Part shown: one piece after another, positions 36,156-64,000 of the stretch
How the letters are laid out: every line of letters starts with the position of its first letter
Position numbering within the stretch: position 1 is the first letter of the stretch
Assembly: GCA_003024785.1 (NCBI GenBank)
Contig: PUQB01000192.1
Coordinates: forward strand, 358,588-422,587
DNA: 64,000 bases
Source: Selaginella tamariscina
Taxonomy: Eukaryota; Streptophyta; Lycopodiopsida; Selaginellales; Selaginellaceae
Direction of reading: 5' to 3'
Notes under the pieces: generated by a model
What the model was told of the DNA's origin: nothing
Databases searched by the model: none
Seen by the model: the letters and a program-made list of their open reading frames with translations, nothing else
Program-made: the position numbers and the translations under genes

Positions 36156-36160
36156 GATTC
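36156..36160. repeat. Target-site duplication, left copy (element 3)
   Basis: GATTC before the left LTR; partner at 43427-43431. Confidence 0.9.
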
Positions 36161-37690: not shown

Positions 37691-37698
37691 CTCACCAA

Positions 37699-39560: not shown

Positions 39561-39599
39561 GAATCTTCGGTAATACCCTGTCAGACCAAGAAATGATCT

Positions 39600-40330
39600 A
39601 ACTTCATGCACGTCTTTTAAGTCATCCACTCAGTAATAGCTTGAATTTTCTTTGGGTCCATGGCAACCTCCCCACCTGAGATCAAGTGTCCCAAGAAATC
39701 TATCTTGGTTTGACCAAATGCGCACTTGCTTTCTTTAGCATACAACTGGTTCTCTCTCAACCTCTGAAACACTTTTTCTAAGTGTTCCACATGTTCTTCA
39801 ATTGTCGAACTGAAAACCAGAATGTCATCAATATACACCACCACGAACTCGTCTAGATAGTCTCTAAACACATCATCCATCATTGTGCAAAAAGTTGCTG
39901 GAGCATTGCACAACCCGAATGGCAAGACTAGAAACTCAAATGATCCATAACGCGTTCGAAAAGCGGTCTTCTCAATGTCATTCTCTGCTACCCGAATCTG
40001 ATGGTACCCGACCTCAAGTCTATTCTTGAAAAGTACTTTGCTTTTGATAGTCTATCAAACAAGTCGTCCACTCGCGGAAGAGGATACTTGTTTTTGATAG
40101 TTATCGCGTTCAGTGCTCGATAGTCCACACACATTCGCATCGTACCATCCTTTTTCATTACAAACAAGATCGGTGCACCATATGGTGATCGACTAGGTCG
40201 AATGTGTCCTCGACCAACCAATTCCGTCAGCTGTCTCTTCAATTCAATCAACTCTTGAGGATTTAACCGATATGGGGCTCTTGCCGGTGGAGACGAACCC
40301 GGCAAAACTCTATTCTGTGGTCCACAGCTC
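39600..40330 (-). pseudogene. Reverse transcriptase of element 3
   Basis: Two open pieces. The first has [40 protein letters not shown] and IDLRSG (40305-39990). The second has [20 protein letters not shown] and [12 protein letters not shown] with the intact catalytic YIDD (about 39845-39810). One missing base near 40010 separates them. Confidence 0.92.
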
Positions 40331-40542
40331 GACGTGGAGGTAACTCAGGCGGCAAATCTTCCGGTAACACATCCCTAAACATGTTCAAGACTTCCAAAAT
40401 AGGTTCGGGAACAGTTCTTGACCATCTCCTATTTTGACTTCACCAGTATCCAAAACCATTGCAAGAAACACACGTTCCCGATGTCTAACTGCTTTACGCA
40501 ACTGAGTTAAGGTAAGGAACATAGGATTCCAATCCTTATCAG

Positions 40543-40950
40543 TTAGCGTTTCCATTCTGAGCGTGTTTTTCTAATGGCTTCTTTATCTGCTGCAAGCGTG
40601 ATTCGATTATCTCCGGAACCCCTCATTTCGATTACATGTTTATGGAACCATTCCATACCCAGAACAAAGTCAAACCCCGTCATATTCAAGACAACTAAGT
40701 CTAGCTTAGCCTTCCAATCTTTGATTTGGACAGGAACTGCCCTTGCTATATTATTAGTATTTTGAGAACCTTTGCCAAAATTGATCTTTATTTCACACAT
40801 CTTTATTACATCCAAATTCAATCGACGAGCTAGACTAGTCGATATGAAGTTGTATGTTGCTCCAGTATCGATCATCATTCGGACTCGGTCCCTCGTATCC
40901 TTCCTCTTCTGACTCATCTTCCGGATCTTCAAGCGTTTCTGGTTCAGCAA
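40543..40950 (-). pseudogene. Protease of element 3
   Basis: MMIDTGATYNFISTSLARRL holds the DTGA catalytic motif (about 40880-40860). FDFVLGMEWFHKHVIEM follows as the second conserved region. About 75 bases present just upstream in element 4 (56258-56333) are deleted here, removing the gag-protease linker and changing the frame. Confidence 0.9.
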
Positions 40951-42127
40951 CTTCCTCTTCTACCATCGCCTTGAAATGTCCTGATTGTTGTGAGGGTGCC
41001 GGACACTCTTTAGCAAAATGACCAGGCTTGTTACAATTATAACATTTCACGACCCCGCTTGCGGAACGCGGGGAGCAGACTTTGGAGCCGATCCTTTGGC
41101 CTGCTGAGAAGGTGGTAACGCCAATGGTTTTCGAAATCCGGTGGGTCTTGATGTGTCCAAAAACTTGGAACTGCCGACAAAGGGACTTGCACTTCGAATT
41201 GATGGCGATTGGTCTGGTCGCCTATCAAACCTTCTGAACCCAGACTTTGGAGGAAACTTCCTTGGTTTAGGTTTTGCTTCCTCCCCTTTGTACAAGTCTT
41301 CTAACGACATGCCATAAGCAACCTTTTGAGCTGCCTCTTGACATTCCCGATAGCTTGTTGGCTTGTACCTTAAGATTTCTCTTCGCGTCTTCTTATTCAA
41401 GCTAGCCATGAAGCAACTTCGAGCTTCATCATCGCTCATATTTGGCACCAATCGCCGTACACTTTCGAATCGATAAACGTGGTCCATAGGACTTCCCCGA
41501 ACTCCCTGTTGACAAAGTGCTAGGTCAGCACGCAATCGCAAACGAGATCATCCGGCATATACTGCTTTTTGATCTCCTTTTTCATGTGCTTCCAGCTGTT
41601 TCGGTATCCACGTTCACCTTCAACAATTCGCCACCAAGTCTTAGCTTCTTCTTTAAGAAATGCTTGGCACATGCAACCTTTTCAGTCTTTCTCACGGAAG
41701 CAGCCTCAAAATAGCTTTCCATATCGTACAACCACATCCAAAACTGTGTAATCCTTTGAACCCATGAAATTCGAAGGCTTTACCGGTTTGAATTTACTGG
41801 GACCTCTACCACTTCTTCTGTTGAAGAATCTGATTCAGAGGAACCTGACTCTGAGTCATGCTTCTTCTTCTTTTTCCGTGTGTCTAGTTGCGGAACATCC
41901 GGCACTGCTGTATTTGTTGGAATCCGAACGGCAACATTATCGATTCGGTCGTTCAACCCCAGAACATCCCCTCGAAGTTCATTTAGGGCATCCATCATTA
42001 TTTCTCGCCAACCAGGTCGTTGTCTAACCCTAGGGGGTCGACCTGGATCAACCTCATCCATCTCCTCATTTTGAGCCTCTGCGACAGCCCTCTCTGCCTC
42101 AGGCTCTGGTTGCTTTCTCTTGCTCAT
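40951..42127 (-). pseudogene. gag of element 3
   Basis: The start MSKRKQPEPEAERAVAEAQN at 42127 is shared with the sisters. It is followed by a Lys/Ser-rich stretch (DTRKKKKKHDSESGSSESDS), then a capsid core broken by small deletions (41770-41545). The open C-terminal capsid follows (MDHVYRFESVRRLVPNMSDD, 41485), then the knuckle CYNCNKPGHFAKEC (about 41045-41000). Most breaks are single-base indels. Confidence 0.88.
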
Positions 42128-42454
42128 TGTATTGAACCCTAGTGTCAACACTCGGAGAATATGCTCGGAATATTCCCAATGTTAAGTTGGAAACACCCTG
42201 CACAGGTTGTACACCCACACACATCAGCTTGAACTAGCATAAGACTTTCGGACATACCTAGAATCTCACGCCGACTCACTGAGCAAGTGTTCTCCGAAGT
42301 TTGACAACTCACAGGATCAAACTCTCTGCGCAGAATACAGACATGTTAACCAAAGCGATAGAGTAGATCAAGAATTTAGAGTTATCTAAACATTGAAACA
42401 CTCTATGACTTAAGGTAGTCCTACTGACCGCAGAGAACTTGCTCCGCTACCAAT

Positions 42455-43426
42455 TGTCAGAGTTTTTACCTGGTGCCACAAAGGCAGCTTGCTAGGTGCC
42501 AACCCTGGAATCCCCTCTCTGGAAACCTCACGGAATCTGGTAAAATAACCCGTATTAGGAACCCAAGCCTTAGGAACTCCAACCCCTAACTGACTAAGCC
42601 CACGAACGAGACTCACCTTGTGGATCAGGATACACGGACTAGCCGAGCTTTAGGTGTCGTTCCTAACTTGGCGTGGTTGAGGCGGCCGGAGCAAGGCCTC
42701 AACCACTAGTTTTGCGGAACGTGAACTCGGGCAATACCTTTGAGCTTGCGAGCAGGTTTTCGGACCAAGGAATCTGGCTAACTCCTTGGAAGTGACGTGC
42801 CCTTGTCTCAAAGGTAAGATCCTGCCAACGATAAGGATAGTCTAACCCTAGGGTGGGTTGTACCCCTGTCGTGTGGAAGTTTGGGCGGCACAACAGAGGG
42901 TTGCACCTTGACGACACAAGCTTAGCTTGCACCGATAGGAGGTTAACGAGCTCTCTTTTGAACCCAAAAAGCCTCACTACATATACTCTACCTTATTTAT
43001 GTGACGGACCCCCCCCCCCCGTTTACCTAAATGAGTAAGTGGGCTGGCACGGAAATGCCAGCCCTTAAAGAAACTAGTTGTCCTAACCTAACCCTAAACC
43101 TAACCCCTAGGGGGGGGGTATTAGGGCATGGGGTTAGGGCAACCCTAGGGTTAGGTCAACCCTAGGAGTGTCCCTAACCCTTATTTTGACAAGCTATACT
43201 TTATAACCTAGAACGTCAAACCGGGGGAGAGTTTCTAGAAGGTAAGTTCTAGCTTCACCTAGAGTTTCCTGCAAATACCTAATGACACCCGGCCGGACCA
43301 TCACAGATACCCAAGTGCACTAAGTGGGCCTGTTTCCTACTACATTTAGGGTTCGTCACACAACTCGGTAGGTAACAACAGTCAAACCCCAAAGTAAAGG
43401 GTTGAGTCATAGTAAAAACTATGACA
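42455..43426 (-). repeat. 5' LTR of element 3
   Basis: About 972 bp. Compared with its partner it carries a small duplication of the GGGTTAGGTCAACCCTAGG segment near 43145 and few substitutions, pointing to a fairly young insertion. A decayed iMet primer site (ATTGGTAGCGGAGC on the minus strand) adjoins at 42454. Confidence 0.93.
42989..43006 (-). promoter_or_regulatory. TATA-like box of the element 3 LTR
   Basis: CACATAAATAAGGTAG on the minus strand, directly next to a G-run (C-run on the + strand, 43008-43020). The same pair of features recurs in every LTR of this superfamily in the window, so it is probably the core promoter. This is inferred from conservation and position. Confidence 0.5.
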
Positions 43427-43431
43427 GATTC
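43427..43431. repeat. Target-site duplication, right copy (element 3)
   Basis: GATTC, partner of 36156-36160. Element H resumes directly after it. Confidence 0.9.
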
Positions 43432-47650: not shown

Positions 47651-50600
47651 ATACATAGTCTAGTGTGGTCTAACGACACGGAACATGTAGCTTTGTTAAG
47701 CAAGCAGTCTACAGTACTACTCACAAGTTATCTCATAAATGCACTATTTAGGAAATGGACAAAAACATGTATAATATATGTATACATACATACAATATAA
47801 TATTGCTTGTATACATATATTTATAAGAGATATTATTTTTCAAACATGCATATGTATATAACTCAAGGACAAAGTATATCGAAATGGTAAGATAACTATT
47901 GAGTCCATGATTAAGCTAGCTCTTATTAAGAATCATTATGACCAAATAATTTATGAATGTATACATGAGACATGTGTCTTTTATATATACATGTGTATAT
48001 ACACATGTAGGCGTTCAACTTATATATTTTTTGTATTTTATTTTCATAAATTGGTGTACATCATTAAAATACATATGAAAACACATGCACATGCACACAC
48101 AATTACTACATACATGCATGTATAAGTTGAAATCATTTATTTTATTTTGTTAATGCAGATATATTTAAAGATGTTCATTATTTTTATTCTACTTTGTATG
48201 CTTATGGTACTTAACTAGAGCTGTGTTTGCTTGTTGAATGAGCAAGAAAAAATCTACATGTACTAATGTACATCTTAAATTTGATTGTGACTCTTATTTT
48301 TTTAATTTTTATATGGGTAACAATTTCTTTTATGGTGTTATGAAAAACTCAATCTTAAATTATTGAAAGTTTAAGAAGCTCCCATATGTGTATGTTAAAT
48401 TAAACTTTAGTGCGATGGAATGTAGGTAGCATCACTTGTGTATCATTTATATAAATTTGACTTAAGATTTAAAAAAACAGTCAATTAATATAATATTGAC
48501 TTTATGGTGTGAACAATGTTTTTGGTTAACTTCTTATTCCACCAATTTGATTTAAGTTAATTACAATTAATCTTTTTCTTTCTTATAAAATTCAAGCTGC
48601 AAATTTTCGATTGCAATATGCGAAAGTATTTTTGAAAGTTTTATTTCTTATAATTTACAATTTTCACAATTGTTAACGAGTACATACCACTTTACAAGTA
48701 ATTCAAAATAATTATTTATACCAAACAACTAATTTATTTGGTGAGAAGAACTTTATAGGTGCATGTGTATGTATGAGTTATGCATGTGATGTGCATTATA
48801 ATGAAAAATTTAAGACATATTTTATATTTATATATATAATAATTAGTTCTTTTTTTTCACACACACATCTTTACATGTAAGGTGTGTAATATATATATGA
48901 CATAAGTAACATATCCTTTCAGATTTAACATAGTACATTTTTTATTTATTGCAGACAAGCTTATACCTCCATGTTAGAAAATGCATCCTTATAATAAAAC
49001 AAGATATTTGTGTTTAATGAAATCATTTGTTTTTGTTTTATTTTTCAAGATGCATTTTTTTAATGTTAAGTAAAAGCTTGCCTACGATAAACAACAAATA
49101 TAATATGTTAAATCTCAAAAAATATGTGATTACATCGTATATATATTACACACTTCACATATAAAGATTTATACATAAGAGAGAAAACTAATTGTTATAT
49201 ATATAAAATAAAATAGTATTACGCTTTTCGTTAAAAGCACACCATATGCATAACTTAATAATATACACTACATATATACATTATAAATCACACATGCACT
49301 TGCAAAATTCTTCTCATTAAACAGATTAGTTGCTTGATAAAGATAATTATCTCTCAAATGTAATATGTACCCACTAATAATTGGTATAACTTTAACATAA
49401 TTTATTCTATGGTATATTTAACAATTTTATTTTTGCAAATATTCATATAAAATGCTAGAAAATATGCTAAATATTTAAAACATTAGAATATCATCACATA
49501 TACATGCATAAATATGATTATGCTGAATATATATGTATTTAAATTTATTTAAAATTTAGATTCTTTTATAGATGTGTATGCTTGTAAATATATTTATAAA
49601 ATTTATTTTTTATTAATATTTATAACTATATACTAAGTGTATACTTTGTATATATTAATTATTTTTATGAATTTCAAGACTATATAAAATATAATTTCTC
49701 TTTATACTTTACTTCTCAATTACTTACAAAGATATTGTTAAATAATAATGTTTATATATATTCAAACACATATGTTGTTTGCTGGTTAACACATGTATTA
49801 AACAAATTAACAAGTAATGCAAAAACATAAAATATATATGATATATTTAATAAATATATTAAAAAAAATGAATCTTAGCAATTGATTTTGATTCTTTAAG
49901 TATATTTTTCCTCAAAAATAATAATAATTTTTTATATTTTAATATTAAATATGGACCATTGATTTATTTTCAAAAAATAATTAACAGTGTTATCTAGATA
50001 TATTCGTAGATTACTTGAGGTTTACAACACTAATCAACATCAAAATATGTAATAGATCTAGGATATTTTTATATTTACACTAATAATACATATTTATATT
50101 GTCAGTAATTGAGTGAAAACTGTATTAAGAGAAAGAATATTATATATACATAGTATGAAAATCATTAATAATTCTAAATTATAATAAAATATTAACTTTA
50201 TAGGACGTATGAAGAATACATATATACGTATATATTTTATAAATTTAGATGCATACACATTTATGCATTAAAGAAATTAAATACATGTATGTATGTAAAT
50301 TTATTTGTTTATATATTTCAATTCTCATAAATAAAACTTAATATATTAAATTTATATGTAAGCATAAGACTAAACAAACTTTTTTAAAGTTTATATATAG
50401 ATTTCATATGATGGTCTTTCTTTCCAATTTTTCCTCATCTTCGCTATAATTTAATACTTATGTTTATTTCTTAAATATTTGTATATTAATTATATACAAG
50501 TAATCTTATATAATAAAGTTTATTTAGTGTGTATGTCTATTGTCTGTGAGTTGGTCATCAACGCCCATCAATAGCCATTCTACATCCATTTGACAATTAT

Positions 50601-51514: not shown

Positions 51515-52493
51515 TGTCAAGAGTTTTTACCTAGTGCCACAAAGGCGGCTTGCCAGGTGCCAACCCTGGAATCCCCTCTCTTGGAAACCCCACGGAACCT
51601 GGTAAAGTAACCCGTATTAGGAACCCAAGCCTTAGGAAGTCAAACCCCTAGCTGACTAAGTCCACAACGAGACTCACCTTGTGAATCAGGATACACGGAC
51701 TAGCCGAGCTTTAGGTGTCGTTCCTAGCTTGGCGTGGTTGAGGCGGCCGGAGCAAGGCCTCAACCACTAGTTTTGCGGAACGTGAACTCGGGCAATGTCT
51801 TTGAGCTTGCAGGCAGGTTTTCGGACCAAGGAATCTGACTAACTCCTTGGAAGTGACGTGCCCCTATCTCAAAGGCAAGATCCTGCCAACGATAAGGATA
51901 GTCTAACCCTAGGGTGGGTTGTACCCCTGTCGTGTGGAAGTTTGGGCGGCACAACGGAGGGTTGCACCTTGACGACACAAGCTTAGCTTGCACCGGTAGG
52001 AGGTTAACGAGCTCTCTTTGAACCCAGGAAGCCTCACTACATATACTCTACCTTATTTATGTGACGGACCCCCCCCCCCCTGTTTACCTAAGAGTAAGTG
52101 GGCTGGCACGGAAATGCCAGCCCTTAGAGAAAATGGTTGTCCTAACCTAATCCTAAACCTAACCCCTAGGGGGGGGTTTAGGACGTGGGGTTAGGGCAAC
52201 CCTAGGGTTAGGTCAACCCTAGGGGTGTCCCTAACCCTTATTTTGACAAGCTATAATTTGCAAAGAACCCTAACCTGGAACGTCAAAACGGGGGAGGGTT
52301 CTCTAAATGGAAGTGCTAGCTTCGCCTAGAGTTTCTTGCAAATACCTAACGACACCCGGCCGGACCATCACTAGATACCCAAGTGCACTATGCGGGCCTG
52401 TTTCTTCTACATCTAGGGTTCGTCACATAATCCAGTAGGTAACAACAGTCAAACCCCAAAGTAAAGGGTCGAGTCATAGTAAAAACTATGACA
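51515..52493 (-). repeat. 3' LTR of element 4
   Basis: TGTCAAGAGTTTTTACC...AAAACTATGACA, about 979 bp; partner 57870-58841. The polypurine run GGCGGGGAGTG (minus strand) adjoins at 52494. Confidence 0.93.
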
Positions 52494-52871
52494 CACTCCC
52501 CGCCTTTGAAAATGTCAACGTCCTCGTTGACGTCTAACTCCAAGACTAGACTAGGTTAGGAAAAATTAACTGAAAACTAACGCTAATCACTCTATGCGGA
52601 GTCAGCAAAAAGTTCACAAGTTTTATTACCCCCCTTGCATTACGCGAAGCCAAATACTTCAGAACCGTCGTTCACTGAGTGAGAACTCAGCTGCCGGAGG
52701 TACCACCTGCGACAAGAAGTCATTTGGAGACCTTTTGCACGTCTGCAAAGTCTGTCACCCGACACAGACAACAAGTTAGTTAATTTCTTTTAGTTAACTA
52801 GAATTTATATCGGAGGCCTCTAGTTAATGTTGTCTGTCGGCCCCTAGGTTAAGAAGAAATAACTTTATTCC

Positions 52872-53648
52872 TTAATTAGTTTGAGACCTTGCCTCAAACT
52901 CATTCACCAACTCCATCGCGTTTTGTAGATTCTCCAATGGTTCCCATGTCGATTCGCACGCCGGATAGCCTTTCCATTTGACGAGATACTCAAACTTACG
53001 TTTTCGCGGTCCATAAACCTTCCTTTTGCCCAATATGGATTCGACTTCGTACTCCGTACCTTCATGAACCAGCTCAGGGGGCGGACGTAAGTTTTCATAT
53101 CTTTGCGGATGTTTCTCATCTTTGTGGAATGGCTCGAGCAAATTGACATGAAACACATTGTGTATTGTTCCCAACTCTGGAGGAAGATCCAACTCATAAG
53201 CCACTTTCCCTACTTGCTTCACCACCTTGTATGGACCTATGTAGTGCGATAGAAACTTCCTCGAAAGAGTCATTGGAACCTTCAGGTTTTTGGTACTCAA
53301 CAATACCATATCCCCAACCTGATACTCTACATCCCGCCGATGCTTATCGTACTGCTGACGATACCTTTCCTGTGCTGCAGCCATCGCTTGACGAGCAGCT
53401 TCCCATGTTCGATACAATTGTCCCGTGAACTCTGCTACAGATGGAACTCGATTGCTATCGTCTTTCGGTAACACCATACTCTGAGGAATACCACCCTTAT
53501 TCCCAGTTAACACTTCCATCGGGCTACATCCGATTGCAGTGTGCATCGAGTTATTGTAACATATCTCAGCCATATCTAAGTGTTCAGCCCAATCAAGTTG
53601 ATCACCTTGAACATAGCATCTGAGATAGTCCTCGACTTGTCGGTTCAC
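52872..53648 (-). CDS. Integrase C-terminal half plus chromodomain of element 4 (open 258-codon piece)
   Basis: This is the longest open retroelement piece in the window. It reads MNRQVEDYLRCYVQGDQLDW with the third catalytic acidic region, then YQVGDMVLLSTKNLKVPMTL and KFLSHYIGPYKVVKQVGKVA, the typical integrase C-terminal fold. The chromodomain follows: YEVESILGKRKVY, KFEYLVKWKGYPACESTWEP. The last two supply the aromatic and acidic residues of the methyl-lysine pocket. The open frame is a fragment: the N-terminal catalytic part lies upstream in other frames, so it is not an independent gene. Confidence 0.85.
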   Translation of the reverse strand: MNRQVEDYLRCYVQGDQLDWAEHLDMAEICYNNSMHTAIGCSPMEVLTGNKGGIPQSMVLPKDDSNRVPSVAEFTGQLYRTWEAARQAMAAAQERYRQQYDKHRRDVEYQVGDMVLLSTKNLKVPMTLSRKFLSHYIGPYKVVKQVGKVAYELDLPPELGTIHNVFHVNLLEPFHKDEKHPQRYENLRPPPELVHEGTEYEVESILGKRKVYGPRKRKFEYLVKWKGYPACESTWEPLENLQNAMELVNEFEARSQTN

Positions 53649-54200
53649 CCTCTCCGTTTGACCATCAGTTTGCGATGGTAAGCTGTACTGAACTTGAGCA
53701 TCGTACCAAACTGCTTAAAACGTTCCCCAAAACTTCCCGTAAACGAGGATCCCGATCTGAGATCATGTTTCCGGTAGTCCGCACTCTTATGACTTCGTGG
53801 AAGAACAACTTTGCTGCTTGAATTGCATTCACTGTCTCTACAGTTGGAATGAAATGAGCAACCTTTGAAAACGATCGACTACCACCATGAGCGCATTAAA
53901 ACCACAAGATTTTGGCAATCCCATGATAAAGTCCAAAGTAACACTTTGAAATGGCCGCTCTGGAATCGGTATACACTGCAACTTCCCAGCTCGTTTTTGC
54001 GATCGGCTCTTTACTTGTTGACATGTGGGGCATGTCTTGACATATTGGCAACATCATCTATCATACCCGGCCAATAGAATCCCTGTTTCAACAAAGCCAA
54101 CGTCTTGCCTTCCACCATGTCCTGCCAAAGGAACATCGTGATGCTCTCTTAATAGCCTCTCCCTCCATGTCCCTTCTGGAACATAGAGTCTCTTTTCTTT
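53649..54200 (-). pseudogene. Integrase N-terminal and core region of element 4, frameshifted
   Basis: Zinc-domain and DFIMGLPKSCGFNAL blocks can be followed in several frames. Compared with element 3, single bases are missing at several points (for example near 53680, 53755, 53870 and 54043), so no frame stays open. Confidence 0.82.
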
Positions 54201-54365
54201 ATAATAAAGAACTCCATCTCGTACCGCAAAATGGCCTGTTTGAGTGCATCCATTCGACTTTCTATTCCTGCTGGAATATTACCATCTCTTCGTAATGATG
54301 AACTTGTTTCCTCTTTGCCACCAGGCTCAAAGCCTCCTTAGCAAACTTGTCCTGAGGATACGCCG

Positions 54366-55148
54366 TCACAAATTCATCCACCAAAGTTGACACGGGTGCT
54401 GACATAATCGAAGATGACCCTTTCTACTGAGTGCATCAGCTACCACATTGTCCTTTCCCGCTTTATGTTTGATTTCAGGCTGAAATCGTGCCAACTTCTG
54501 CTGCCATCTAGCATACTTCGGTGATAGCTTCGGCTGCGTTTCAAAATACCTTAGAGTTACACTATCTGTCCAAACCACAGTGCCATGACTTGGAAGATAA
54601 TGACGCCAATACTCCAAGGAAGCAACAATAGCATACATCTCCTTTTCGTGAGTAGGCCATCGAGTTTGCGCGGCATCTAACTTCTTCGAGAAAAAGGACA
54701 CTGGATGTCCTTTCTGTTGCAATACACCACCAATTGCAAAGTCGGAAGCGTCACATTCTACTTCAAAGGGATCTTCAAAGATGGGCAACTGCAAAACTGG
54801 CTCAGAAGAGATAGCCTCTTTGAGTTTGACGAACGCACGTTGGCACTCTGGAGTCCAATGCCATGGAATGTTTTCGTAAGATCTGTCAATGGGGGCTATT
54901 TCCGAGTAACCCTTTATGAATCTTCGGTAATACCCTGTCAGACCAAGAAATGATCTAACTTCATGCACATCTTTTAAAGTCATCCACTCAGTAATAGCTT
55001 GAATTTTCTTTGGGTCCATGGCAACCTCCCCACCTGAGATCAAGTGTCCCAAGAAATCTATCTTGGTTTGACCAAATGCGCACTTGCTTTCTTTAGCATA
55101 CAACTGGTTCTCTCTCAACCTCTGAAACACTTTTTCTAAGTGTTCCAC
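54366..55148 (-). CDS. RNase H and RT thumb of element 4 (open 260-codon piece)
   Basis: It opens with [20 protein letters not shown], then [20 protein letters not shown] and [20 protein letters not shown] (connection). RNase H follows with [40 protein letters not shown] and [13 protein letters not shown]. The three catalytic acidic regions are intact. A base change near 55148 puts the RT palm in another frame, so this is a piece of pol rather than a gene. Confidence 0.87.
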
Positions 55149-55726
55149 ATGTTCTCAATTGTCGAACTGAAAATCAGAATGTCATCAATATACACCACTA
55201 CGAACTCGTCTAGATAGTCTCTAAACACATCATCCATCATTGTGCAAAAAGTTGCTGGAGCATTGCACAACCCGAATGGCAAGACTAGAAACTCAAATGA
55301 TCCATAACGCGTTCGAAAAGCGGTCTTCTCAATGTCATTCTCTGCTACCCGAATCTGATGGTACCCCGATCTCAAGTCTATTCTTGAAAAATACTTTGCT
55401 TTTGATAGCCTATCAAATAAGTCGTCCACTCGTGGAAGAGGATACTTATTTTGATAGTTATCGCGTTCAGCGCTCGATAGTCCACACACATTCGCATCGT
55501 ACCATCCTTTTTCATTACAACAAGATAGGTGCACCATACGGCGATCGACTAGGTCGAATGTGTCCTCGACCATCAATTCTGTCAGCTGTCTCTTCAATTC
55601 TACTAACTCTTGAGGATTCAACCGATATGGGGCTCTTGCCGGTGGAGACGAACCTGGCAAAATCTCTATCTGTGGTCCACAACTCGACGTGGAGGTAACT
55701 CGGCGGCAAGTCTTCTGGCAACACAT
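55136..55726 (-). pseudogene. Reverse transcriptase palm of element 4
   Basis: [40 protein letters not shown] and [12 protein letters not shown] with intact YIDD (about 55200-55180). The upstream fingers region has lost bases near 55450 and 55520. Confidence 0.9.
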
Positions 55727-55923
55727 CCTTAAACATGTTCAAGACTTCCAAAATAGGTTCAGGAACAGATTCTTGACCATCTCCTATTTTGACTTCACCA
55801 GTATCCAAAACCATTGCAAGAAACACACGTTCCCGATGTCTAACTGCCTTACGCAACTGAGTTAAGGTAAGGAACATAGGATTCCAATCCTTATCAGTTA
55901 GCGTTTCCATTTGAGCGTGTCTT

Positions 55924-56475
55924 TTAATGTCTCTTTATCTGCTGCAAGCGTGATTCGATTATCTCCAAACCCCTCATTTCGATTACATGTTTATGGAACC
56001 ATTCCATACCCAAAACAAAGTCAAACCCCGTCATATTCAAGACAACTAAGTCTAGCTTAGCCTTCCAATCTTTGATTTGGACAGGAACTGCCCTTGCTAT
56101 ATTATTAGTATTTTGAGAACCTTTGCCAAAATTGATCTTTATTTCACACATCTTTATTACATCCAAATTCAATCGACGAGCTAGACTAGTCGATATGAAG
56201 TTGTATGTTGCTCCAGTATCGATCATCATTCGGACTCGGTCCCCTCGTATCCTTCCTGTCAAATATAGCAAAGGGTCAGTTTTGTCTTGAATAGCGAATA
56301 AGGCAGGTTGTGTCTGGCACAACATTACCTCTTCTGACTCATCTTCCGGATCTTCAAGCGTTTCTGGTTCAGCAACTTCCTCTTCTACCATCGCCTTGAA
56401 ATGTCCTGATTGTTGTGAGGGTGCCGGACACTCTTTAGCAAAATGACCAGGCTTGTTACAATTATAACATTTCAC
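55924..56475 (-). pseudogene. Gag zinc knuckle and protease of element 4 (open piece)
   Basis: CYNCNKPGHFAKECPAPSQQ (knuckle, 56470-56410), an acidic linker, LCQTQPALFAIQDKTDPLLY, and the protease with MMIDTGATYNFISTSLARRL. All are in one frame of 183 codons. This shows gag and protease were translated as one polyprotein. The linker is the part deleted in element 3. The frame stops soon after FVLGMEWFHKHVIEM. Confidence 0.9.
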
Positions 56476-57548
56476 ACCCCGCCTGGAACGCGGGGGAGCA
56501 GACTTTGGAGCCGATCCTTTGGCTGCTGAGGAGGTGGTAACGCCAATGGTTTCCGAAATCCGGTGGGTCTTGATGTGTCCGAAAACTTGGAACTGCCGAC
56601 AAAGGGACTTGCACTTCGAATTGATGGCGATTGATCTGGTCGCCTATCAAACCTTCTGAACCCAGACTTTGGAGGAAACTCCTTGGTTTAGGTTTTGCTT
56701 CCTCCCCTTTGTACAAGTCTTCTAACGACATGCCATAAGCAACCTTTTGAGCTGCCTCTTGACATTCCCGATAGCTTGTTGGCTTGTACCTTAAGATTTC
56801 TCTTCGCGTTTCTCATTCAAGCTAGCCATGAAGCAACTTCGAGCTTCATCATCGCTCATATTTGGCACCAATCGCCGTACACTTTCGAATCGATAAACGT
56901 GGTCCATAGGACTTCCCCGAACTCCCTGTTGACAAAGTGCCAGGTCAGCACGCAATCGCAAACCGAGATCATCCGGCATATACTGCTTTTTGATCTCCTT
57001 TTTCATGTGCTTCCAGCTGTTTCGGTATCCACGTTCACCTTCAACAATTCGCCACCAAGTCTTAGCTTCTTCTTTAAGAAACTGCTTGGCACATGCAACC
57101 TTTTCTGTCTTTCTCACGGAAGCAGCCTCGAAATAGCTTTCCATATCATACAACCAGTCATCCAAAACCTTGTAATCCTTTGAACCCATGAAATTCGAAG
57201 GCTTTACCGGTTTGAATTTACTGGGACCTCCACCACCTACTTCCGTCGAAGAATCTGATTCAGAGGAACCTGACTCTGAGTCATGCTTCTTCTTCTTTTT
57301 CCGTGTGTCTGGTTGCGGAACATCTGGCACTGCGTATTCGTTGGAATCCGAACGGCAACATTATCGATTCGGTCGTTCAACCCAAACATCCCCTCGAAGT
57401 TCGTTTAGGGCATCCATCATTATTTCTCGCCAACCAGGTCGTTGTCTAACCTAGGGGGTCGACCTGGATCAGCCTCATCCATCTCCTCATTTTGAGCCTC
57501 TGCGACAGCCCTCTCTGCCTCAGGCTCTGGTTGCTTTCTCTTGCTCAT
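56462..57548 (-). pseudogene. gag N-terminal part of element 4
   Basis: The start MSKRKQPEPEAERAVAEAQN is at 57548. The capsid core (SNFMGSKDYKVLDDWLYDME, 57205-57140; WRIVEGERGYRNSWKHMKKE, about 57050) is open over 179 codons. It is followed by RRFDRRPD-type basic and Pro-rich segments up to the knuckle. Three frame changes. Confidence 0.87.
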
Positions 57549-57869
57549 CGTATTGAACCCTAGTGTCAACACTCGGAGAATATGCTTGGAATATTCCCAA
57601 TGTGAATTGGAAACACCCTGCACAGGTTGTACACCCACACACATCAGCTTAAACTAGCATAAGACTTTCGGACATACCTAGAATCTCACGCCGACTCACT
57701 GAGCAAGTGTTCTCCGAAGTTTGACAACTCACAGGATCAAACTCTCTGCGCAGAATACAGACATGTCAACCGAAAGCAATAGAGTATCAAGAATTTAGAG
57801 TTATCTAAACATTGAAACACCCTACACTTAAGGTCCTACTGACCGCAGAGAACTTGCTCCGATACCAAT

Positions 57870-58841
57870 TGTCAGAGTTTTTACCTGGTGCCACAAAGGC
57901 GGCTTGCCAGGTGCCAACCCTGGAATCCCCTCTCTGGAAACCCCACGGAATCTGGTAAAGTAACCCGTATTAGGAACCCAAGCCTTAGGAACTCAAACCC
58001 TAACTGACTAAGTCCACGAACGAGACTCACCTTGTGAATCAGGATACACGGACTAGCCGAGCTTTAGGTGTCGTTCCTAGCTTGGCGTGGTTGAGGCGGC
58101 CGGAGCAAGGCCTCAACCACTAGTTTGCGGAACGTGAACTCGGGCAATGTCTTTGAGCTTGCGGCAGGTTTTCGGACCAAGGAATCTGACTAACTCCTTG
58201 GAAGTGACGTGCCCTATCTCAAAGGCAAGATCCTGCCAACGATAAGGATAGTCTAACCCTAGGGTGGGTTGTACCCCTGTCGTGTGGAAGTTTGGGCGGC
58301 ACAAGGAGGGTTGCACCTTGACGACACAAGCTTAGCTTGCACCGGTAGGAGGTTAACGAGCTCTCTTTGAACCCAGGAAGCCTCACTACATATACTCTAC
58401 CTTATTTATGTGACGGACCCCCCCCCCCCTGTTTACCTAAATGAGTAAGTGGGCTGGCACGGAAATGCCAGCCCTTAGAGAAAATGGTTGTCCTAACCTA
58501 ACCTAAACCTAACCCCTAGGGGGGGTTTAGGCGTGGGGTTAGGGCAACCCTAGGGTTAGGTCAACCCTAGGGGTGTCCCTAACCCTTATTTTGACAAGCT
58601 ATAATTTGCGAAGAACCCTAACCTGGAACGTCAAAACGGGGGAGGGTTCTCTAAATGGAAGTGCTAGCTTCGCCTAGAGTTTCTTGCAAATACCTAACGA
58701 CACCCGGCCGGACCATCACTAGATACCCAAGTGCACTATGCGGGCCTGTTTCTTCTACATCTAGGGTTCGTCACATAATCCAGTAGGTAACAACAGTCAA
58801 ACCCCAAAGTAAAGGGTCGAGTCATAGTAAAAACTATGACA
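57870..58841 (-). repeat. 5' LTR of element 4
   Basis: About 972 bp, very similar to 51515-52493. In the first ~170 bp I see roughly eight differences, most of them single-base indels. Confidence 0.92.
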
Positions 58842-59071
58842 CATGTCCATTGTACTCTTGCCAAATTGCACGGCTCGTACTGCATTGAATCGTGGAGGAG
58901 ATGCAAAGCGTCAGCGTCCAGTGGCAAAAAGGCGGTTTGTTTTCAGCAAGTCCCACAACGCCAGATGATTCCCCTCCATGGGCGGCCTCAACCTCTCTCC
59001 TTTGCGGGCTCCATGCCCAACAACCAAACCTCACATGTCCCTCCCTGCCAATGTAGCTCCCCACGGGCACT
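58842..59071 (+). other. Common leader of the tRNA units, no gene seen
   Basis: Also present at 61137-61273 and 62957-63057 in unit 2. Long frames here (for example 58834-59139 on the minus strand) are only the complement of the tRNA-Val region and have no family resemblance. Confidence 0.6.
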
Positions 59072-59145
59072 AGTTTCGTGGTGTAGCCAGTTATCACGTC
59101 AGTCTCACACACGAAGGTCCCCAGTTCGAGTCTGGGCAAAAACCT
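59072..59145 (+). tRNA. tRNA-Val (CAC), probably decayed
   Basis: D-arm/A-box region GTGTAGCCAGTTATCAC, anticodon region AGTCTCACACAC (CAC anticodon), and B box AGTTCGAGTCTGGG. Compared with the copy at 63058 it lacks one T in the 3' anticodon stem and has an extra A in the 3' acceptor strand (CAAAAACC). It may be non-functional. Confidence 0.75.
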
Positions 59146-59360
59146 TTAGCGCCCTAAACCCTAAAGGCTGGTTTAGGGTTTAGGGTTTAGACCTAAGGGC
59201 TGGTTTAGGGTTTAGACCAACTCCCTAAACCCTAAAGGCGACACTAAATTGTGCCCTAAAGAAACAAGAACTTTTGTGCCCTAGCGCCCTAAACCCTGAA
59301 GTGGCCTAAACCTAAAGTGGGTGACATTAAATTGTGCCCTAGCATCCTAAACCCTAAAGC
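59146..59360. repeat. Telomere-like CCCTAAA / TTTAGGG blocks
   Basis: CGCCCTAAACCCTAAAGGC is followed at once by the opposite strand form GGTTTAGGGTTTAGGGTTTA. Further short CCCTAAACCCTAAAG groups continue to about 59360. The plant telomere unit is CCCTAAA. The blocks are interstitial and partly inverted. Confidence 0.8.
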
Positions 59361-59401
59361 AACAAGAACTCAGAACTTCTTCGAGCAACCGGCACCATGC
59401 A

Positions 59402-59472
59402 TGCACTGCCTGGGAATCAAACCCGGGTCTGTACCGTGGCAGGGTACTATTCTACCACTAGACCAGCAGTGC
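59402..59472 (-). tRNA. tRNA-Gly (GCC)
   Basis: On the minus strand it begins GCACTGCTGGTCTAGTGGTA and has the anticodon region CCTGCCACGG (GCC). The acceptor GCACTGC pairs fully with GCAGTGC. The T-loop reads TTTGATT rather than TTCGATT, and one T-stem pair is C:A. It is otherwise the normal 71-base nuclear form, the only gene of the cluster on this strand. Confidence 0.9.
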
Positions 59473-59584
59473 ACCAACTTCTGATGCTGACGACACAAGA
59501 TGGATATGCAGCATCACATATACACATCAGAATGCCAATTGGTACGGTCCTAGAATATTCTCTACGATGCGGTGTGCTTGTCAG

Positions 59585-59657
59585 GCCGGCCTAGCTCAGT
59601 TGGTAGAGCGTGAGGCTCTTAACCTCGTGGTCGTGGGTTCGATCCCCACGGCCAGTG
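59585..59657 (+). tRNA. tRNA-Lys (CTT)
   Basis: 73 bases. A box TAGCTCAGTTGGTAGAGC, anticodon loop CTCTTAA (CTT), B box GGTTCGATCCC. Anticodon and T stems pair fully. The acceptor has one C:A mismatch and one G:T pair. Confidence 0.92.
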
Positions 59658-59678
59658 TGTCTTGACAACAGCATGCAT

Positions 59679-59829
59679 TTTCCTAGCTTTTAGGCCATAT
59701 TGAGGGGATTGTGGCATTTTCCTAGCTTTTAGCCATATTGAGGGGGATTGTGGCATTTTCCTAGATTTTAGGCCATATTGAGGGGATTGTGGCATTTTCC
59801 TAGCTTTTAGGCCATATTGAGGGGATTGC
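59679..59829. repeat. 38-bp minisatellite, four copies
   Basis: Unit CATTTTCCTAGCTTTTAGGC followed by CATATTGAGGGGATTGTGG, with single-base variants. It lies between tRNA-Lys and tRNA-Leu and is absent from unit 2. Confidence 0.93.
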
Positions 59830-59888
59830 TTGCTTGGCACCGAGCCCATGCCATTTCAGTAGTGCCCAATAACCGTCCTAGCTTCCAG

Positions 59889-59972
59889 GTCAGGATGGCC
59901 GAGCGGTCTAAGGCGCCAGACTCAAGTTCTGGTCTCTCATTGGAGGCGTGGGTTCGAATCCCGCTCCTGACA
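59889..59972 (+). tRNA. tRNA-Leu (CAA)
   Basis: 84 bases with a long variable arm. Acceptor GTCAGGA pairs perfectly with TCCTGAC. A box GGCCGAGCGGTCTAAGGC, anticodon loop CTCAAGT (CAA), B box GGTTCGAATCC. It looks fully intact and is the best-preserved gene of the cluster. It has no intron, although many plant Leu-CAA genes carry one. Confidence 0.95.
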
Positions 59973-60060
59973 CACATGCAGTGTGGCATTTTAGAAATGC
60001 CACTCCTAGCCATCCGGCCCTGACACTCTGGGGTGCTCGACAAAAATGTTTGCGTACCTT

Positions 60061-60163
60061 GGGGTGGTGGCGCTGATGGTTAGCGCGTAGGTCTCATAGC
60101 TATCGAGCAATCCTGAGGTCGAGAGGCTTGAAGAGGTCGAGAGTTCAAGCCTCTCTCACCCCA
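60061..60163 (+). tRNA. Elongator tRNA-Met (CAT) with intron and an 18-bp internal insertion
   Basis: It begins GGGGTGGTGGCGC, has anticodon loop CTCATAG, then a short intron (about 11 bases, GCTATCGAGCA) at the usual position 37/38 for plant elongator Met. It ends in GAGAGTTCAAGCCTCTCTCA and CCCCA. Between the variable loop and the T-arm, GAGGCTTGAAGAGGTCGA is inserted. That insertion is a near copy, partly inverted, of the T-arm and would spoil folding. Confidence 0.85.
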
Positions 60164-60256
60164 TCGCCTTTGCCGCCCATTGCGTGTCAGATGACACTCT
60201 GGGATCCTGAGGACGTCACTCTATCGGTGGGGATGTAGATGTCACTCTAGTCGGTT

Positions 60257-60339
60257 GTCGCTTTGGCCGAGTGGTTAAGGCATGTGCTTGCTAAGTACAT
60301 GGGTTTCACCCGCGAGAGTTCAAGTCTCTCAAGGCGACG
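60257..60339 (+). tRNA. tRNA-Ser (GCT)
   Basis: GTCGCTTTGGCCGAGTGGTT start, anticodon region TTGCTAA (GCT), long variable arm, B box AGTTCAAGTCT, end AGGCGACG. One extra A in the 3' acceptor strand (AAGGCGAC) compared with the unit 2 end. Confidence 0.9.
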
Positions 60340-61080
60340 TAACTCCCTCGAAAAGGTACACACGGAATATTCTCATCTTGGTTATCCATGGAATATTCCC
60401 TTCTTGGTTTCATGGGGTTTTGAGTTGTGTTTGTAGAAGATATTCATGAATATTCCCATCTTGCTTTGGGATGAGTCACAAGTAAACCCCCCCAAGGAAG
60501 AAATTTTGGAATATTCCCTTCTTGTTTTTTCATGGGTTTTGTGTGTTGTGTTGTATGTGACTCCCAAAGGAAGATATTTATAAAATATTTCTATCTTGGT
60601 TATTCATGGAATATTCGCTTCTTGGCGTCATTGGGTTTCGGGTTGTGCTATATGCGACTCCCAAGAAGATATTCATGGAATATTCCCATCTTGCTTTCAG
60701 TTGTGCCGTACGCCGTAACTCCCCAAGAAGATATTCATGGAATATTCCTTCTTGTTTCATGTGCAATGTAACTCACCCAAGAAGATATTATGGAAAATTC
60801 CTTTATGTGTTGTCCCCTTCTTGGTTTCACGGGTTTTCGTGTTGTGTTGTGTTGTAACTCCCCCCATGAAGATACTTGTGGAATATTTCCTTCTTGGTTC
60901 CATGGGTTCCCGTGTCGTGATTCTTGTATGTAACTTAACTCCCCAAGAAGATATCCATGGACTATTCTGCTCTTTCCTACGGGAGTTCGAGTCTCTTGAT
61001 ATTCTTTGGAATATCCTTCTTACCATAGCAGGTTCGGCATTCTAAGAGTCCTTGGAATATGCACGCTTTGAGAAGGGGTG
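60340..61080. repeat. Irregular repeat field built on GGAATATTCC palindromes
   Basis: GGAATATTCCC or GGAATATTCC-like words recur more than eight times (e.g. 60365, 60390, 60510, 60607, 60678, 60738). They are commonly preceded by GATATTCATGGA and followed by TTCTTGGTTTCATGGG at 40-100 bp steps. Each is an inverted-repeat palindrome resembling a GAAnnTTC heat-shock-type box; any such role is speculation. The window ends as unit 2 enters the same field. Confidence 0.75.
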
Positions 61081-61273
61081 TCTCGAGACAAAGCCATAGC
61101 CTGCAAAAGATATTCCGATAACTCTATTGGATATGGGCATGTCCATTGTACTCTTGCCAAATTGCACGGCTCGTACTGCATTGAATCGTGGAGGAGATGC
61201 AAAGCGTCAGCGTCCAGTGGCAAAAGGGCAGTTTGTTTTTCGGCAAGTCCCACAACGCCAGATGATGCCCCTC

Positions 61274-62956
61274 TGTCATAGTTTTTACTATGACTCGACC
61301 CTTTACTTTGGACGTTGACTGTTGTTACCTACTGTACTATGTTGATAAGCCCTAGGTGTAGAAGAAACAGGCCCACTTAGTGCACTTGGATATCTAGTGA
61401 TGGTCCGCCGGGTGTCATTAGGTATTTGCAAGAAACTCTGGGCGAAGCTAGCACTTCCATCTAGAAAACTCTTACCTTGGTTTTCCATGTCCCGGTTGGA
61501 TTAATGGCTATTCTGGTGAGTTCGACATGTCGGATATGCTTAGAAATACCCCCAGGTTTGACAGGTTAGGGTTTAAGGGGTCGATGGATAACTCACCAAG
61601 TATGTTCCCTCTGGAATGAGATTTCAATGCTAGCCCACTTATGTAAACAGGAAAACAGGGGGGGGGGGGCCTCTGTCACATAAATAAGGTAGTATATAGA
61701 GTGAGGGTTCCTGGGTTCATGACTGAGCTCGTTACTCTTCTCCTGGTGCAAGCTCTAGCTTGTGTCGTTAAGGCACAACCCTCTGTTGTGCCGCCTAACT
61801 CCAGATGCCAAGGGGTACGTCCCACCTTTGGGGTAGCTTACCCTTAACGTTGACGAATCCATGCCTGGAGGACTTGTCGGGATACATTGTTCCAAGAAGC
61901 AGGGTTGAGGCTTGTCTCCAGCCCCCTCCTCCACGTCAAGCTAGGTGTAGCACTCACGGCCAAAGCAAGGCACATCCATGTCCTTGTCCAACTGTGGGCG
62001 TGGGATCTTGTTTGACAGGTTCACTGAGGGGTTCTAGAGTTGGCATTTAAGAGCCACGTTTGTGGCACTTGGTGCAACTCTTGAATCTAAGGGCTATGGC
62101 ATGATAGCCCACATTGGGAAGGTAGTGTCACATGGAAATGTGACACTGGCTAAACGTCACAAGGTACAACGCCTGAGGCATGCCCTTTGGGGTTATGTCA
62201 TGGGCTTGTCGCCAAGGGGTTGGATACTTTAGCAAACAGACATGCTTGTGCTTGCACTAGGGTGCTAAGCCTTGGGCATCCGCTCAAGGGAGGTTAGGTC
62301 TCATAACTAGGTGTGCTTTGACACACTTGGCTAGGGGAGTGTTCTCCTTGGAATTCAAGGGTTGAACAACCTAAGCGTGTTAGCAGGAAGCCTTTCGTGA
62401 GGCACTTGCAAGGTCAAGTGCTTAGAGTTTCCCAAACCTAGCCTTAAGGAGTTTGCTTAGCAGAACACTCGTGTCCGCCTACGGCGCACACTCGTGTCCT
62501 CACTAAGTATTAGCCCTAGATCTAGGGTATAACTTGGCCACTCAAACCTTAGGGGTTAGTCGTGGTTCAAGGTACCCCTTGTCGCCCTAAAAGGGGTTGT
62601 ACTCCCGGATGAGGGTGATTCCTCAAGGGGTAAGTGACGATGCCTTAGCTCTGTCCAGGGTATGTGTGGAACACACGTCTCCTTGATGGGGGTTAGGACA
62701 TGAGCCTGTCTAGGTCTTCTAGGGCAAGATCCTAAGTCAACTAGGGTTATCCCTCAAGGGTTCTGGGGCAGACATTCTAGGGGAGACTTAGGCTAAACCC
62801 TAAGTCTCCTGTCCACTTGGGCATTAGAGTCTAACCCTAGGGGTCGTTGGGGTTGTTCTGGGAAACTTAGCGTTGCTCACAGAAGTGATGACGCCAAATG
62901 GCCACATGCAGCCAACGTGTTGCCACGTGTTGGCCCTTTGGGTTAAAACTCTGACA
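61274..62956 (+). mobile_element. Solo long-type LTR with CCCTC duplication
   Basis: TGTCATAGTTTTTACTATGA...TTAAAACTCTGACA, 1683 bp, flanked by CCCTC (61269-61273 and 62957-62961). Removing it and one CCCTC restores the unit 1 sequence. There is no internal region, so it arose by recombination between two LTRs. The first part resembles element 3 LTRs; the later ~900 bp is found only in the long type. It is the complete reference for the LTR fragments at 1-577, 43755-46033 and 50692-50976. Confidence 0.93.
61674..61691 (+). promoter_or_regulatory. TATA-like box of the solo LTR
   Basis: GTCACATAAATAAGGTAG directly follows a G-run (61661-61670). It is the same motif pair as in the element 3 and 4 LTRs. 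Confidence 0.5.
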
Positions 62957-63057
62957 CCCTCCGTGGGCGGCCTCAACCTCTCTCCTTTGCGGGCTCCATG
63001 CCCAACGACCAAACCTCCACGTGTCCCTCCCTGCCAATGTAGCTCCCCACGGGCACT

Positions 63058-63130
63058 GGTTTCGTGGTTAGCCGGTTATCACGTCAGTCTCACACACTGA
63101 AGGTCCCCAGTTCGAGTCTGGGCGAAACCT
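63058..63130 (+). tRNA. tRNA-Val (CAC), unit 2 copy
   Basis: GGTTTCG acceptor pairs fully with CGAAACC. The anticodon stem TCAGT/ACTGA and T-stem CCCAG/CTGGG pair fully, with anticodon CAC. The D-arm lacks one base (GTGGTTAGCC against GTGGTGTAGCC in unit 1). Better preserved than the unit 1 copy. Confidence 0.85.
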
Positions 63131-63330
63131 TTAGCGCCCTAAACCCTAAAGGCTGGTTTAGGGTTTAGGGTTTAGACCAACTCCCTAAACCCTAAAGGCG
63201 ACACTAAATTGTGCCCTAAAGAAACAAGAACTTTTGTGCCCTAGCGCCTAAACCCTGAAGTGGCCTAAACCTAAAGTGGGCGACATTAAAATTATGCCCT
63301 AACATCCTAAACCCTAAAGCAACAAACTTC
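63131..63330. repeat. Telomere-like blocks, unit 2
   Basis: Same CCCTAAACCCTAAAGG / GGTTTAGGGTTTAGGG arrangement as 59146-59360, with small deletions. Confidence 0.8.
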
Positions 63331-63453
63331 TTCGAGCAACGGGCACCATGCATGATGCTGACGACACAAGATGGATATGCAGCATCAATATACACATCAG
63401 AATGCCAATTGGTACGGTCCTAGAATATTCTCTACAATGCGGTGTGCTTGTCA

Positions 63454-63525
63454 GGCCGCCTAGCTCAGTTGGTAGAGCGCGAGGCTCTTAACCTCGTGGT
63501 CGTGGTTCGAGCCCCACGGCCGGTG
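63454..63525 (+). pseudogene. tRNA-Lys (CTT), unit 2 copy, decayed
   Basis: A box, CTT anticodon and B box are present. One G is missing from the acceptor 5' strand (GGCCGCC) and one from the T-stem (CGTGGTTCGA), so the cloverleaf is poor. Confidence 0.75.
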
Positions 63526-63622
63526 TGTCTTGACAACAGCATGCATGTGGCATTTTAAAATGCCACTCCTAGCCATCCGGCCCTGACACTTTGGGGTGCT
63601 CGACAAAGCTGTTGCGTACCTT

Positions 63623-63705
63623 GGGGTGGTGGCACAAATGGTTAGTGCGTAGGTCATAGCTATCAAGCAATCCTGAGGTCGAGAGTTCAAGCCTCTCTCA
63701 CCCCA
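63623..63705 (+). pseudogene. tRNA-Met, unit 2 copy, anticodon arm damaged
   Basis: GGGGTGGTGGCAC start and intact T-arm and acceptor end. The anticodon region reads GTAGGTCATAGC where unit 1 has GTAGGTCTCATAGC, so two bases of the loop are lost. It lacks the 18-bp insertion of the unit 1 copy, showing that insertion is unit 1 specific. Confidence 0.8.
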
Positions 63706-63765
63706 TCGCCTTTGCCGCCCATTGCGTGTCAGATGACACTCTGGGATCCTGAGGACGTCACTCTA

Positions 63766-63954
63766 GTCGCTTTGGCCGAGTGGTTAAGGCGTGTGCCTGC
63801 TAAGTACATGGGTTTCACCTGAGAGACTTGAAGATCCTGAGGACGTCTCTAGTCGCTTTGGCCGAGTGGTTTCACCTGAGAGACTTGAAGATCCTGAGGA
63901 CGTCACTGCTAAGTAATGGGTTTCACCCGCGAGAGTTCAAGTCTCTCAGGCGAC
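63766..63954 (+). pseudogene. tRNA-Ser (GCT), unit 2 copy, rearranged
   Basis: A 5' part with GCT anticodon (63766-63820) is followed by GAGAGACTTGAAGATCCTGA. Then come a second partial 5' part (63852-63871), the same GAGAGACTTG block again, and finally an anticodon-to-3' end piece (63906-63954, AGTTCAAGTCTCTCAGGCGA). The gene has been broken and partly duplicated within about 190 bp. Confidence 0.85.
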
Positions 63955-64000
63955 GTAACTCCCTCGAGAAGGTACACACGGAATATTCTCATCTTGGTTA

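Follow-up and report, generated by a model that had tools for sequence, protein, structure and literature searches.

The tRNA gene cluster at the end of contig C496

The window, a 64,000-base stretch of Selaginella tamariscina DNA that lies at the very end of contig C496 (422,587 bases), closes with a tandem repeat of nuclear transfer RNA (tRNA) genes. An earlier note, made from the sequence alone, had described a duplicated cluster of six isotypes within about 1.3 kb and had named low scores for all of its genes as evidence that would count against it. Instead, cmscan run on the whole window gave nine tRNA matches that reached the Rfam gathering score, every one of them within 59,402 to 63,955, and a tenth match, the Val gene of unit 1 at 59,073 to 59,144, scored 27.9 against a cut-off of 29. 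ARAGORN called six tRNA genes, and eight over the same stretch when introns were permitted. Chance matches are ruled out as the source of these calls, as 200 dinucleotide shuffles of positions 58,842 to 64,000 gave one ARAGORN call in total. Unit 1 carries Val-CAC, Gly-GCC (on the minus strand), Lys-CTT, Leu-CAA, an intron-bearing Met-CAT, and Ser-GCT between 59,073 and 60,339, and the six isotypes thus lie within 1.27 kb, close to the earlier figure. The Met-CAT gene was identified by homology to copies read as Met by ARAGORN, which misreads the intron in most copies and then calls Ala or Ser. The features of the two units and of the adjoining element are as follows (core copies are described in the next sections; TRF, Tandem Repeats Finder; LTR, long terminal repeat).

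51515 to 58841, minus strand: Ty3-type LTR retroelement with chromodomain, adjoining unit 1; LTRs at 51515 to 52495 and 57870 to 58843, 98.2% identical
58842 to 58976, plus strand: leader of unit 1, 96.3% identical to 61138 to 61273
59073 to 59144, plus strand: tRNA-Val(CAC) of unit 1, damaged; cmscan 27.9 bits, acceptor-stem changes relative to the commonest array copy
59401 to 59473, minus strand: tRNA-Gly(GCC) of unit 1; cmscan 50.1 bits, also ARAGORN; commonest core copies 58.8
59585 to 59657, plus strand: tRNA-Lys(CTT) of unit 1; cmscan 61.0 bits, also ARAGORN; best core copies 67.9
59675 to 59828, no strand: 39-bp tandem repeat, 3.9 copies, in the Lys-Leu spacer; TRF, 94% matches
59889 to 59973, plus strand: tRNA-Leu(CAA) of unit 1; cmscan 57.3 bits; sequence shared by 21 of the 42 array Leu copies that are full-length
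60061 to 60163, plus strand: tRNA-Met(CAT) with intron, unit 1; cmscan 36.2 bits; length 103 against 85, 18 bases longer than the commonest array copy
60257 to 60339, plus strand: tRNA-Ser(GCT) of unit 1; cmscan 42.3 bits, also ARAGORN; best core copies 56.5
60366 to 60967, no strand: degenerate AATATTCC-rich repeats, remainder of unit 1; self-matches at 67 to 69%
61138 to 61273, plus strand: leader of unit 2, 96.3% identical to 58842 to 58976
61274 to 62956, minus strand: LTR-like insert within the unit 2 leader; 1,683 bp, ends TGTCATAG...CTCTGACA
63058 to 63130, plus strand: tRNA-Val(CAC) of unit 2; D arm one base short; cmscan 49.1 bits; core copies 62.7
63453 to 63527, plus strand: tRNA-Lys(CTT) of unit 2, damaged by an acceptor change and a T arm that lacks one base; unpaired positions; cmscan 42.5 bits
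63623 to 63705, plus strand: tRNA-Met(CAT) with intron, unit 2; cmscan 45.5 bits
63766 to 63955, plus strand: tRNA-Ser(GCT) of unit 2; variable region interrupted by about 105 bases; cmscan reaches 41.8 bits only when the interruption is bridged; ARAGORN reads a 104-base intron

The leaders start at 58,842 and 61,138, which gives a spacing of 2,296 bp between the two units. These align in five matching blocks that are 79.8 to 96.9% identical and that skip the stretches holding Gly and Leu, so that unit 2, inside which the contig ends, retains Val, Lys, Met, and an interrupted Ser. The proposal that the whole unit is repeated therefore holds only in part: a second copy does follow the first, but it is damaged, lacks two of the genes, and has its leader split by an insert. 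Counting both units, Val and Met of unit 1 and Lys and Ser of unit 2 are damaged. The gene copies of the window score lower in cmscan than core copies with the exception of the Leu gene of unit 1, which has the commonest array sequence, in line with the suggestion that it looks functional. The Val-Gly spacers of the units (59149 to 59360 and 63131 to 63340) are filled with CCCTAAA/TTTAGGG-like words resembling plant telomere repeats.

The insert that splits the unit 2 leader is flanked on both sides by a 5-bp direct repeat, CCCTC, and, in reverse, matches LTR sequences found in the window. The Ty3-type element beside unit 1 contains Pfam Chromo, RT_RNaseH, and SH3_Tf2-1 domains in pieces read as they stand, and its flanking five bases (GATAC and CATGT) are mismatched. 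It is one of two related Ty3-type elements in the window (36155 to 43429 and 51515 to 58841), with LTR pairs that are 95.6% and 98.2% identical and bodies that are about 93% alike.

A family of head-to-tail arrays

Genome searches covered an assembly of 300,702,823 bases in 1,391 contigs. A search with unit 1, in which the best 40 of 301 candidates were scored, found at least 144 matching pieces on contigs C496, C661, C1182, C909, C394, C971, and C503. The first 20 bases of the leader matched at 51 places on 11 contigs with at most two mismatches (control, 0), a count that includes redundant contigs. From the array contigs, 25 stretches were taken, holding 45 of the 51 leader matches, and were merged to eight with a total of 245.5 kb. 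ARAGORN called 243 tRNA genes in these merged stretches, and cmscan, for 23 of the 25 stretches, gave 153 and 83 matches that reached the cut-off, with top scores of 67.9 bits (Lys) and 62.7 bits (core Val).

The longest order is seen on C661, where 19 consecutive Val-led units lie head to tail between 44,015 and 86,059 (42 kb) at a spacing of 2,103 to 2,550 bp. The nuclear genome of S. tamariscina thus carries head-to-tail arrays of a six-isotype tRNA repeat, and the expectation that more units exist beyond the window is borne out. The C661 units fall into two subtypes. Ten units of about 2.1 kb carry Val, Gly, Lys, and Ser; nine units of 2.4 to 2.55 kb carry Val, Gly, Lys, and Leu, and eight of these also carry Met, the last Leu-bearing unit having neither Met nor Ser. 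In a 2.1-kb unit that was read, a deletion starts in the Lys-Leu spacer and reaches the 3' end of Met, and an exact search located the 5' end of Ser in only one of the nine longer units. The two deletion subtypes carry complementary gene sets, with all six genes present between them.

Internal blocks of at least 5 kb on C661 are 97.7 to 98.4% identical to one another. Between a C661 unit and units of other contigs, aligned spacer columns are 79 to 91% identical, with many gaps. Units on C1182 lie 7 to 15 kb apart, those on C971 are irregularly spaced, and the scattered units of both contigs, like those of the window, are damaged or incomplete. The family therefore combines a uniform core with variable, pseudogene-rich edges, and the window shows one decaying edge of such an array.

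Whether the duplication is a product of assembly can be judged from the same comparisons. The ends of C909 and C394 are copies of the C661 array at 99.2 to 99.8% identity, with about 20 kb common to all three, so the assembly does hold redundant copies; this and the end of the window's contig inside unit 2 would fit an artifact. However, the matching blocks of units 1 and 2 show up to 20% divergence, quite apart from the missing genes, and the C661 units differ from one another. Moreover, opposite-orientation units occur on C661 at 128.6 to 143 kb, where positions 134885 to 130301 match positions 58,849 to 63,354 of the window, LTR-like insert included, at 95.8% over 4,617 bp. The same stretch on another contig at this divergence shows that the repeat is not an assembly duplication, a possibility that the earlier note had named as refuting, and an artifact has a negligible probability. 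C503 and C971 likewise have common pieces, at 86 to 97%. The redundancy among C394, C909, and C661 and between C503 and C971 reflects unmerged haplotypes or recent segmental copies, and genome-wide counts are inflated to that extent. Both haplotypes may be present in the assembly if the figures of 150 and 300.73 given for S. tamariscina in a review table (PMC8558194) are expected and assembled Mb.

Array genes compared with dispersed and organelle genes

The 36-base core of the Leu gene matched at 59 places in the genome, and all 28 perfect matches lie on array contigs. Seven other matches, on C459, C490 (two), C530, C582, C628, and C926, read GAGTGG instead of GAGCGG, and two of these show an additional mismatch; four more have an altered anticodon stretch and look like another Leu isoacceptor. 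Among 67 matches to the 38-base Gly core, 43 with no or one mismatch are on contigs bearing other array matches; 18 have two mismatches, 13 of these on contigs without other array matches, and six have three. Clustered copies can thus be told from dispersed ones for the Leu and Gly cores, the dispersed genes having been matched by core only. The arrays as the sole source of the Leu and Gly isotypes are ruled out by these dispersed matches, and the existence of dispersed relatives from which the array genes differ makes expression testable.

Dispersed tRNA genes are plentiful in general. A tRNA family search, in which 63 of 15,756 candidates were scored, gave at least 62 high-scoring tRNA genes; of the 62 listed, one is on an array-bearing contig (C971:726294, far from the units). 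A search for Lys genes scored the best 40 of 120 candidates. Lys and Leu matches on C313, C632, C572, and C643 were rejected as dispersed genes owing to array matches nearby: Leu, Gly, or Lys matches lie a few kilobases apart on C632, C572, and C643, and leaders are present on C643 and C313. From this arrangement, the four loci are probably further, diverged array loci.

An organelle DNA insert was rejected as the origin of the cluster from gene structure and matches within the assembly, no direct comparison with an organelle genome being made. The Met gene has an intron, as do nuclear elongator Met genes according to the portion of PMC11700998 available, and the Leu and Gly cores are one to two mismatches away from dispersed genes. 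Together with the 19 consecutive units on C661, the intron and the dispersed relatives support the initial description of a nuclear-type, mixed-isotype tandem repeat.

Conservation, flanking signals, and mutation pattern

The analyzed stretches contain 321 gene matches, of which 258 span at least 90% of the gene. Within this set, redundant contigs included, the commonest sequence accounts for 27/51 Val, 23/49 Gly, 13/52 Lys, 21/42 Leu, 8/37 Met, and 8/27 Ser copies. In the core array of C661, the copies identical to the chosen core sequence number 13 of 19 for Val, 11 of 19 for Gly, 7 of 19 for Lys, 7 of 9 for Leu, 4 of 8 for Met, and 7 of 11 for Ser. Genes and their 60-nucleotide flanks were compared between arrays with at most 12 copies per group, and the gene medians were 95.2 to 98.5% against 88.3 to 96.7% for the flanks, with the exception of Lys, for which similarity is higher in the 3' flank than in the gene. 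Constraint on the array genes thus appears at best weak, and conservation relative to the flanks is too weak to serve as proof of function.

These values bear on the possibility that the arrays are a satellite in which tRNA genes are passengers, tandem DNA expanding by itself with no copy that matters. Gene classes barely more conserved than their flanks would be expected of such a satellite, as would the many damaged and truncated copies and the tolerance of transposon insertions. Against it, most core copies of Val, Gly, and Leu are intact, and all six genes have been kept between the two subtypes. We regard this explanation as improbable.

The surroundings of the array genes differ from those of 20 dispersed tRNA genes, a sample that may include an organelle-type gene. 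The A+T fraction upstream of array copies has means of 0.40 to 0.57 by gene class and a maximum of 0.66, compared with 0.60 to 0.88 for the dispersed genes. A TTTT run within 20 nucleotides downstream was found in 9 of the 258 array copies, all of them Leu, versus 8 of the 20 dispersed genes.

Transitions were counted relative to the core sequence in distinct gene variants, those below 80% identity being skipped. They affected 100/1379 CG, 61/1024 CHG, 33/2972 CHH, and 12/3606 A or T positions; Fisher tests against CHH gave p values of 1.5e-25 for CG and 5.9e-16 for CHG, which are overstated because the copies are related. In the spacer flanks of outlying copies, where transversions are common too, the counts were 144/1504 CG, 210/1626 CHG, 201/7476 CHH, and 387/10261 A or T. 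The two LTR pairs of the window offered too few changes for a methylation control, and six LTR copies were used in their place (CG, 36/400; CHG, 34/342; CHH, 74/2094), with six copies of a repeat from a PPR gene of the window as a further control (CG, 20/142; CHG, 14/220; CHH, 25/633). An excess at CG is common to the array, the LTR copies, and the PPR repeat. The ratio of CHG to CHH is 5.4-fold in array genes, 4.8-fold in array spacers, 2.8-fold in LTRs, and 1.6-fold in the PPR gene. CHG methylation in plants marks mainly silenced repeats. The lean of the transitions toward CG and CHG resembles that of methylated heterochromatin and suggests long-term silencing of the array by DNA methylation.

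This pattern, present in genes and spacers alike, is difficult to reconcile with arrays that actively supply the bulk of six tRNAs and are kept by selection for dosage, perhaps feeding tRNA-depleted organelles. Such a role would accord with the structurally intact core genes, the Lys and Val scores being the highest noted above, and with most gene classes being slightly more conserved than their flanks. It would also accord with the state of the organelles, as the plastome of S. tamariscina retains only six (PMC7827865) or eight (PMC6486807) tRNA genes in the parts of these reports available, and the latter describes a Selaginella moellendorffii mitochondrial genome with no annotated tRNA genes and favors import. 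The leaders, however, are richer in G+C with few T runs nearby, dispersed cores of Leu type and Gly type exist, and many array copies are damaged. Bulk supply by the arrays is accordingly judged unlikely.

Probable amplification, silencing, and decay of the array

Probably, then, a six-gene cluster was amplified and homogenized by unequal exchange, has been largely silenced, and is decaying at its edges while being pierced by retroelements. The fullest unit, in an array of 2.1- to 2.55-kb repeats, comprises Val-CAC, Gly-GCC (inverted), Lys-CTT, Leu-CAA, Met-CAT with its intron, and Ser-GCT. Unequal crossing-over and segmental duplication may have amplified this cluster and would keep the core uniform, and dense cytosine methylation of heterochromatic type would silence most copies. 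Edge copies, out of reach of homogenization, would decay by deamination. Structurally sound core genes might still be transcribed where chromatin opens, by analogy with what has been reported for the Ser-Tyr-Tyr cluster of Arabidopsis. The satellite explanation differs from this one solely in denying any use of the core copies.

Several observations weigh against amplification followed by methylation and decay. As the PPR repeat is also rich in CG transitions, the array stands apart from it only in its CHG excess; the transition counts are not independent, the array copies being related; and the direction of change was assumed from the core sequence. Genes slightly more alike than their flanks may point to some constraint. 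Within 45 nucleotides downstream, a TTTT run is found in 69 of the 258 array copies, 51 of which are Lys (51 of the 52 Lys copies), and in 9 of the 20 dispersed genes; the latter, drawn from the 62 listed, belong to other isotypes (Lys-TTT, Arg, Asn, Ile, and Cys).

A stronger form of use, in which the arrays are a dedicated nuclear source of array-specific tRNAs that is switched on in certain cells or by conditions such as drying or rewetting and that also serves organelle translation, is very unlikely. A link between the arrays and the few plastid tRNA genes of S. tamariscina is speculative, though open to testing.

Other features of the window

The PPR gene region on the minus strand (24658 to 26824; Pfam PPR) contains a 324-bp in-tandem repeat, present in about 6.7 copies at 86% (TRF), and its sequence indicates a protein growing by whole-repeat duplication. 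Among the 120 matches listed for this protein, the highest identities (48 to 49%) are to S. moellendorffii proteins, and the lowest E-values belong to a metagenome protein and a Sphagnum protein. The segment from 48708 to 49350 is very AT-rich (G+C of 0.216 in 48 to 50 kb) and matches its own reverse complement at 71%. Positions 12630 to 14376 and 17580 to 18569 form a dispersed duplication, 93.8% identical over 883 bp, with nested tandem repeats within the stretch.

Relation to known tRNA gene arrays and significance

Among animals, Xenopus laevis has a tandem mixed-isotype tRNA repeat of kilobase size. In plants, Pro, Tyr-Ser, and Ile tRNA clusters are described for flowering plants in the available text of PMC11700998. 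A scan of 50 species, two of them lycophytes, lists ten clusters of two to five recurring isotypes, in the species abbreviated Ath, Cre, and Cpu (PMC12652284, as far as its text is available). Given these published clusters, the earlier view that a duplicated mixed-isotype unit is unusual for a plant nucleus is not supported in that form, since they too are recurring sets of different isotypes in tandem. They differ from the Selaginella array in having at most five isotypes; the examples in the legend have two and three, in identical copies, and no lycophyte is among the ten in the portion of that report available.

The Arabidopsis Ser-Tyr-Tyr (SYY) cluster is likewise a head-to-tail mixed-isotype nuclear repeat with a uniform core and variable, pseudogene-rich flanks, and its clustered copies also differ in sequence from dispersed ones (PMC12308677, available part). 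The same source reports that it is methylated, is silent across most tissues, and shows activity in root cap cells, and its discussion doubts methylation alone as the silencer; for Selaginella, the corresponding trait is methylation-like decay of the sequence. The Selaginella array differs from SYY in carrying six isotypes per unit instead of two, in occupying several loci with two deletion subtypes, and in having retroelements inside the array.

The tRNA arrays of Entamoeba provide the other precedent. According to the available part of PMC2652664, they have units of several isotypes that are homogenized, with short tandem repeats between genes, and one Entamoeba invadens unit, 2,364 bp long, combines six tRNA genes with 5S RNA. 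Short tandem repeats between genes are also found in Selaginella, in the form of the 39-bp Lys-Leu repeat of unit 1. In Entamoeba almost all tRNA genes are in arrays, whereas in Selaginella dispersed genes are plentiful and damaged units are common. With the plant clusters of two to five isotypes and the Entamoeba arrays as precedents, the Selaginella array is of a known kind, and it has the most isotypes per unit among the plant cases found in the literature. It is unreported in the literature found on Selaginella tRNA genes and plant tRNA clusters, a body of work that did not include the S. tamariscina genome paper.

Plant genomes hold more tRNA genes than are apparently used, for reasons that are unsettled, and Selaginella, an early vascular plant, combines extreme loss of plastid tRNA genes (PMC7827865 and PMC6486807, available parts) with an array family of several isotypes. 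Given the array-specific bases in at least two of its tRNAs, sequencing of mature tRNAs could tell array transcripts from dispersed ones directly. These bases would allow testing of whether silence is the default state of clustered tRNA genes, whether such genes can be activated, and whether nuclear array tRNAs arrive in the organelles.

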